Part shown: positions 41,811 through 44,633 of the stretch, one piece after another
Position numbering within the stretch: position 1 is the first letter of the stretch
How the letters are laid out: the number at the start of each line of letters is the position of its first letter
DNA from: Donghicola mangrovi
Lineage (GTDB): Bacteria > Pseudomonadota > Alphaproteobacteria > Rhodobacterales > Rhodobacteraceae
DNA length: 64,000 nt
Assembly (NCBI RefSeq): GCF_013377535.1
Contig: NZ_JABCJE010000004.1
Coordinates: 62,001-126,000, forward strand
Direction: 5' to 3'
Translations under genes and position numbers: made by a program
Notes under the pieces: generated by a model
What the model saw: the letters and a program-made list of their open reading frames with translations, nothing else
What the model was told of the DNA's origin: nothing
Databases searched by the model: none

Positions 41811-41857
41811 CACAGACAGGCACTTATTCATAAAGCCGAATGTTGAAAAAAGCCTTT

Positions 41858-43539: not shown

Positions 43540-43575
43540 TCCGCCCCTCCCCCGAGCCCCCTGGATGCGGGTAAT

Positions 43576-43589
43576 TGAACACATGTTCA
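43576..43589. promoter_or_regulatory. Palindrome TGAACA-CA-TGTTCA in the divergent region
   Basis: A perfect 6-bp inverted repeat with a 2-bp spacer lies 37 bp upstream of the HMG-CoA lyase start, where a repressor of the catabolic genes could bind. Confidence 0.45.
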
Positions 43590-43637
43590 CTTAATTCCGC
43601 AACCGTTTTCCCAAGTGACCCTGCGTTTCTCCGATTT

Positions 43638-43667
43638 ACGAATAAACATTCATATGTTTCTATTCGT
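43638..43667. promoter_or_regulatory. Long imperfect palindrome before the MBL-fold gene
   Basis: Inner arms AAACAT (43644-43649) and ATGTTT (43654-43659) surround TCAT, and outer arms ACGAAT (43638-43643) and ATTCGT (43662-43667) continue the dyad with a 2-nt asymmetry. It ends just before the ribosome site GGGAGG (43670-43675), where a bound repressor would block expression. Confidence 0.5.
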
Positions 43668-43682
43668 CTGGGAGGATTTCAC

Positions 43683-44633
43683 ATGACCAGATTTTTCATC
43701 GCAGCGGCCCTGACCGCCTGCGCCACCGCAGCCCTGTCCAGCGAGGACATCCCCGACCAGTACCCCCAGTCCGAGCTGTATTCGAAGCCGGTCGAGGTGA
43801 TCCCTCATGTCTTTTCGGCGATCGGGGCGACGGCGCCGCCGACCTATGAAAACTCGGGCCACAACAACAACCTGTCCTTCATCGTGACGGACGCAGGCGT
43901 TGTGGTGATCAATGGCGGCGCGTCCTATCGCCTTGCCAAGGCTTTGCATGACGAGATCAAGACAATCACCGATCAGCCCGTCGTGCTGGTGATCAACGAG
44001 AATGGCCAAGGCCACGCGATGCTAGGCAACTCCTATTGGGCCGAGCAAGGCGTGGACATTCTGGCCCATGTGGACGCCATTGAGGCCTTCAAGAAAGAGG
44101 CGGACTTTATCCTTCAGGGCATGGAGCGCTACAACAAGGACAAGGCCGAAGGGACCACCATCGCCCTGCCCACCCGCAGCTTTACCGACCGCGAGGTCGT
44201 GTCATTGGGGGGTGTGGACATAGAGGTTCTGCATTTGGGTCCCGCCCATGATCCGGGCGACACGCAGGTCTGGATTCCCCAGTGGGGCATCATGATCGCG
44301 GGGGACATCGCGTTCCACGAACGGATGCTGCCGATCTTCCAAGGGACCTGCACCAAATGCTGGATCGAGACATGGGAAACCAAGCTGGAGCCGCTGGCCC
44401 CCACCTATGTGATCCCCGGCCACGGGCACCCGACCAACTTGGCCCAAGTGCGCCGCTATACCCATGACTACCTCGTGGACCTTCGGGAAAAGATCGGCGC
44501 CCATATTGATGAGGGCGGCGATCTGGCCGGTGCCTATTACGTGGATCAGGAGCGGTGGAAGCACCTCGATACCTTCGAGGAGCTAGCCACCAAGAACGCA
44601 GGCCGCGTTTACGAGGAGATGGAGTGGGAATAA
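43683..44633 (+). CDS. Exported MBL-fold protein with degenerate metal site
   Basis: A 316-residue protein with a signal peptide (MTRFFIAAALTACATAALSS). The metallo-beta-lactamase fold is clear: VVVINGGASYRLAKAL, the post-strand motif region, HLGPAHDPGDTQVWIP (H189), MIAGDIAFHERMLPIF (D208) and YVIPGHGHPTN (H247). But where the family has THxHxDH, this protein reads NENGQGHA (residues 105-112), so three of the usual first-shell ligands and the catalytic Asp are replaced. It may have lost hydrolase activity, bind another metal, or be a binding protein. The stop codon lies in the loop of a terminator. Confidence 0.85.
   Translation: MTRFFIAAALTACATAALSSEDIPDQYPQSELYSKPVEVIPHVFSAIGATAPPTYENSGHNNNLSFIVTDAGVVVINGGASYRLAKALHDEIKTITDQPVVLVINENGQGHAMLGNSYWAEQGVDILAHVDAIEAFKKEADFILQGMERYNKDKAEGTTIALPTRSFTDREVVSLGGVDIEVLHLGPAHDPGDTQVWIPQWGIMIAGDIAFHERMLPIFQGTCTKCWIETWETKLEPLAPTYVIPGHGHPTNLAQVRRYTHDYLVDLREKIGAHIDEGGDLAGAYYVDQERWKHLDTFEELATKNAGRVYEEMEWE

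Follow-up and report, generated by a model that had tools for sequence, protein, structure and literature searches.

SoxH of Donghicola mangrovi, an MBL-fold protein with a conserved, altered motif in place of HxHxDH

Proteins of the metallo-beta-lactamase (MBL) fold carry HxHxDH as their hallmark motif, and in the canonical enzymes Asp120 orients the nucleophile. The mono-zinc lactamases of subclass B2 have the signature N116, H118, D120 and C221. SoxH purified from Paracoccus pantotrophus reportedly contains about 0.3 zinc and about 0.2 copper per molecule. In the literature SoxH, or its relatives, are called zinc metallohydrolases. According to PMC12997753, relatives with the canonical motif adjoin genes for a SoxYZ-like carrier and PQQ dehydrogenases; their roles are proposed rather than shown, and the mutant phenotypes are minimal. 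PMC10221251 states that SoxG and SoxH are induced by thiosulfate, and PMC11034169 describes separate soxH genes in Sulfitobacter. Our literature search, with most subscription journals outside its coverage, brought up no work on the site or the activity of SoxH.

The window analysed here is a stretch of 64,000 nucleotides from Donghicola mangrovi, and the gene under study lies at 43683..44633 on the + strand, encoding 316 amino acids plus a stop. The closest proteins in PLSDB are from Paracoccus, the best five being 75-77% identical. In Paracoccus ferrooxidans the homologue ends the gene run soxR-S-V-W-X-Y-Z-A-B-C-D-E-F-G-H, in which only soxX, Y, Z, A, B and C are named by the record; the remaining letters are ours and follow the usual gene order. 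Since the window protein is 77% identical over the matched part to this last gene of the sox cluster, we identify it as SoxH, an orthology that these comparisons establish. The two proteins share the motif NENGQGHA, the later ligands and the C-terminus. The copy of P. pantotrophus reads NENGQGHAMLGNGYW, and the nearest named relatives of the window's SoxH are those of Donghicola species, at 85-90%. The protein is thus an already described accessory protein of the Sox system, an identity that the first-pass annotation had missed. We put the probability that the gene is soxH and that its motif is a constrained altered site at about 85%, a figure that does not extend to metal or substrate.

No NCBIfam model reaches its cut-off. 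The best two, TIGR04559 (144 bits, cut-off 280) and TIGR04558 (124.2 bits, cut-off 300), describe the quinoprotein relay system zinc metallohydrolases 1 and 2, which resemble SoxH in whole-length homology, in H189, D208 and H247 and in the -EWE end, but keep HxHxDH in 13 of 13 sequences of their alignment (A3). Score and motif together rule out membership of TIGR04559, of which the genome has a true member elsewhere (G000:C12:540312, 342.9 bits), and the replacement of HxHxDH by NENGQGHA likewise speaks against TIGR04558. Subclass B2 was rejected as well (46.4 bits, cut-off 240), Asn116 being the only signature residue in common.

The N-terminus is hydrophobic, and residues 7-22 are modelled at low confidence. 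A probable signal peptide covers about residues 1-20 (43683..43742, + strand), and in the orthologue alignment a variable N-terminus is followed by a common ASEDI (the A-x-ASEDI region). Sequence and model fit an exported protein.

The altered motif lies in residues 103-116, VINENGQGHAMLGN, with NENGQGHA as residues 105-112 (codons at 43995..44018, + strand). By alignment and conservation it stands in the place of HxHxDH: N107, Q109, H111 and A112 occupy the H-x-H-x-D-H positions free of gaps in a phmmer alignment with CphA, in the MAFFT alignment of the family and in an hhalign comparison of A2 with the canonical relatives, which sets VINENGQGHAMLGN over VILTHMHPDHVLGA. Because these three alignments agree, we place H111 at the Asp120 position; a gapped alternative that would put it at His121 is disfavoured by all three. 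The later ligands are H189 in GPAHDPGD (44247..44249), D208 in AGDIAF (44304..44306) and H247 in PGHGH (44421..44423), all on the + strand and all invariant in alignments A1 and A2. They correspond to His196, Asp/Cys221 and His263, where 116, 118, 120, 196, 221 and 263 are positions in the standard lactamase numbering.

Conservation of the motif was followed at several depths. E106, N107, G108, Q109 and H111 are invariant in all 70 sequences of A2, which comprises the window's protein and 69 of the 80 named loci. In a broader comparison of 178 aligned rows, with some genes represented twice, residues 107/109/111/112 read NQHA in 130, NQHS in 2 and GQHR in 13; the remainder are 25 HHDH, 7 HHVR and 1 NHDY. 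The pattern QxH is found in 145/145 rows above 355 bits, all of which carry GQxH or its A-variant, and in 0/33 rows below 150 bits. Position 107 is N in the SoxH clade and G in a sister clade with TGGQDHR. Across 120 distinct SoxH sequences both codons are used for each of Glu106, Asn107, Gln109 and His111, which demonstrates codon freedom and not conservation, as the search pattern required E, N, Q and H; G108 is kept in 119 of the 120. In a tree of 67 identity-thinned rows, whose bootstrap had not fully settled and in which three other rows have long branches, NQHA (26 rows) and GQHR (10 rows) are each undivided at 100/99, and the QxH proteins together sit on a single branch, again at 100/99. 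A single motif change explains these data, its direction depending on the root.

The first-pass annotation had described HxHxDH as erased and had proposed a conserved subfamily motif rather than decay, taking the change to point to a new metal, a different reaction or a binding function. The proposal of a conserved motif is confirmed by the 70 rows of A2, and a close homologue with an intact HxHxDH, which would have pointed to decay, was sought among the 178 aligned rows and not found. HxHxDH has not just been lost, since a different fixed motif stands in its place. The postulated loss of only half a dinuclear site holds in part: His111 also takes the position of Asp120, which belongs to the ligands of the second half.

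An AlphaFold2 model computed with A2 (mean pLDDT 88.4, pTM 0.85) establishes the MBL fold, with Z scores of up to 30.2 to MBL-fold structures; the predicted fold and the retention of H189, D208 and H247 agree with what had first been read from the letters. The best whole-length structural matches are the chlorothalonil dehalogenase 6uxu (Z 30.2, rmsd 2.4, 280 residues) and 8d2z of Burkholderia (Z 30.1, rmsd 2.8, 272 residues), which nevertheless have only about 18-20% identity, 8d2z aligning HYHAVR at the motif. Sfh-I and CphA come next (Z 24.7, rmsd 2.5, 223 and 220 residues). As the dinuclear B1 enzymes lie within 1 Z of these B2 enzymes, the fold does not decide for a single metal. The sequence profile ranks 8d2z first (E 5e-25), followed by the B2 enzymes (about 1e-12). 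CphA and Sfh-I share with SoxH the fold, the Asn at 116 and a GN.YW after the motif; they differ in that SoxH has Gln for His118, His for Asp120 and Asp for Cys221, and their identity is about 19-20%. The alignment of 178 rows and the tree also contain another MBL clade whose motif is altered, to THYHAVR together with PGRG for PGHG (7/7 rows, one clade at 100/99; L023, L024, L025, L027, L028, L030 and L210), and the motif of the solved 8d2z reads alike.

The distribution of SoxH follows that of the Sox system. A match at E 1e-40 or better was obtained in 159 of the family's 394 genomes; divided by E-value, 149 of these have SoxH and 10 the sister type only. SoxB (E 1e-100 or better) is present in 147/149 SoxH genomes, including the window's own, where it lies on contig C12, compared with 100/245 other family genomes. 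This co-occurrence is established by a Fisher p of 1.3e-37, a value that is too small because the genomes are related. The 100 genomes with SoxB and without SoxH indicate that the Sox system itself does not require SoxH. Both SoxB-less SoxH genomes are peculiar: G290 is 77% complete, and in G368 the SoxB match covers only residues 1-214 of 564, soxC, soxD and soxE give no match, soxF matches weakly (30%) and the frame of soxH is interrupted by a stop at query residue 91. The locus of G368 (L179), with its decaying sox cluster and interrupted soxH, is a natural case of joint loss; in all other SoxH genomes of the family the frame is open. In a class-wide sample of 385 genomes, SoxH rows occur in 5 genomes of other families, and SoxB is present in 5/5. 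Of 398 genomes sampled from the phylum, 11 match at 1e-60, one of them outside the class and with NENAQGHS. Where a genome of the family has just the sister type, SoxB is present in 8/10 cases and absent in 2/10. In L078 the TGGQDHR gene stands after ArsR-like regulator, permease-like and small thioredoxin-like genes and before an OsmC-like gene; the permease-like and thioredoxin-like genes recur in L083. All these names come from reading the sequences.

The gene order at the window differs from that of Paracoccus, where soxH follows soxG in the cluster. Here soxH is the sole sox gene within the 64 kb and does not follow soxG; the sox cluster of this genome, which reaches soxF, lies on contig C12 and the window on C34. 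We do not treat placement in the cluster as defining, because unlinked soxH genes are common in relatives and described in Sulfitobacter. Among the 80 named loci, soxG lies at most 60 bases upstream of soxH in 19 and slightly further away in three more. No SoxG was found beside the window's soxH, and the genome's best SoxG match (37% identical, contig C63), perhaps an AidB-like lactonase, was set aside. The nuo, HMG-CoA lyase-like and enoyl-CoA hydratase-like genes of the window, named from reading their sequences, gave no informative link to a function. The neighbourhood is kept in 2/3 same-genus genomes and in 0/20 others surveyed. Downstream of soxH, the transhydrogenase gene pntA occurs within 3 kb in 50/80 named loci (L089-L168), and in several loci a methyltransferase-like gene of about 150 amino acids stands between unlinked soxH and pntA.

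Upstream of soxH we searched for ATTC-N8-GAAT, the site deduced in PMC9774250 for SqrR, a repressor that responds to sulfide. In Hyphomicrobium, SoxR shares 53% identity with SqrR and is responsive to sulfane sulfur (PMC10451225). The 200 bases 5' of soxH were sought in 145 loci, of which 114 distinct ones with a placed start were used and 31 dropped as repeats, too short or unplaced. The site is present in 72 of the 89 regions without a soxG match, a set that includes the window's, and in 0 of the 25 with one; in 100 dinucleotide shuffles of the 89 regions the average was 0.39 and the maximum 3. It starts 37-73 bases before the soxH start codon. The 80 named loci span 1.44 million bases and contain only 27 sites besides the 46 upstream of soxH. 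It also precedes soxX in 5/6 sox clusters examined (L171-L175, L178), that of the window's genome (L171) included, and soxB or soxC in some of the six. These counts show that a site of the SqrR type, as judged by its sequence, stands before most unlinked soxH genes of the relatives. It predicts that the scattered soxH genes stay under sulfane-sulfur control. Before the window's own soxH and the copies of three same-genus relatives an intact site is absent; the window retains the left half only, ATTCATATGTTTCTAT (43648..43663, + strand).

Two further elements were observed in the window. An ATTC-N8-GAAT at 41826-41841 lies upstream of a nuoA-like gene of complex I; it is present in 4/4 same-genus genomes with diverged N8 and absent in 26/26 other genomes examined, and a genus-specific control of complex I by sulfide or sulfane sulfur is possible. 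The palindrome TAATTGAACACATGTTCACTTA at 43572-43593 sits between soxH and the divergent HMG-CoA lyase-like gene; two same-genus genomes (L086, L087) retain it with an altered centre.

What does the altered motif mean for the metal site? Its fixed nature suggests that the site of SoxH, as far as residues can tell, differs from that of the fold's usual zinc hydrolases. We consider it probable that, with N107 and Q109 in place, the Zn1 half of the usual dinuclear site, rich in histidine, is empty, and that one metal ion would be held in a rebuilt Zn2-like site by H111, D208 and H247, perhaps with H189, similar to the B2 enzymes but with His for Asp120. This single-metal assignment derives from the residue pattern and the analogy to B2. 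A protein that is still dinuclear, the first metal being bound more weakly through Gln109 and Asn107, would accommodate the invariance of Q109 in both SoxH and the sister clade and the retained H189; since position 107 is N or G depending on the clade, only Q109 and H189 would remain to hold that metal, and we regard such a site as improbable. The idea that the window gene is a degenerate version of a canonical MBL hydrolase could draw on the non-canonical motif and on the canonical TIGR04559 relative in the same genome, but the altered residues are common to all SoxH rows while their codons vary, and of the 149 family genomes all but one have an open frame. The motif conservation refutes the view of an isolated decayed copy, and we give this explanation practically no weight.

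Regarding function, the SoxYZ-like carrier and PQQ dehydrogenase setting of the canonical relatives leads us to favour, with low confidence, an accessory reaction on sulfur adducts. SoxH would act in the periplasm and might, for example, clear or hydrolyse stalled carrier-cysteine conjugates of SoxYZ, a tentative proposal that is weaker than the metal-site assignment. Somewhat less likely still is the wider view in which SoxH and its TGGQDHR sisters form an MBL branch with a metal site foreign to the canonical families (His120, Asp221, His263, with His196 and Gln118 near), SoxH acting on protein-bound or free sulfane sulfur beyond the current Sox scheme. SoxH could instead be a non-catalytic binder of SoxYZ or sulfur species, its metal structural or absent: three usual motif positions are changed, and Asp120, which orients the nucleophile in canonical enzymes, is gone. 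The invariance of H189, D208 and H247 together with H111 and Q109 is, on the other hand, what one expects of metal holding, and we find the binder doubtful. A role in the delivery or storage of metal, such as zinc or copper for periplasmic Sox proteins, would suit the changed first ligands and the partial zinc and copper content said to have been found in purified SoxH. The surveyed soxH neighbours, however, include no recurrent gene for a metal transporter or chaperone, and the fold and the conserved surroundings are those of enzymes, so that this role appears very unlikely, slightly more so than the dinuclear site.

In summary, SoxH is ordinary in its identity, and its altered site is worth a direct test. 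The modest interest of the finding is that a protein labelled a zinc metallohydrolase does without the signature of that family: HxHxDH is absent from every SoxH sequence examined, and the label is for this reason unfit for guessing SoxH chemistry. The fixed SoxH residues provide exact targets for metal analysis and mutation.
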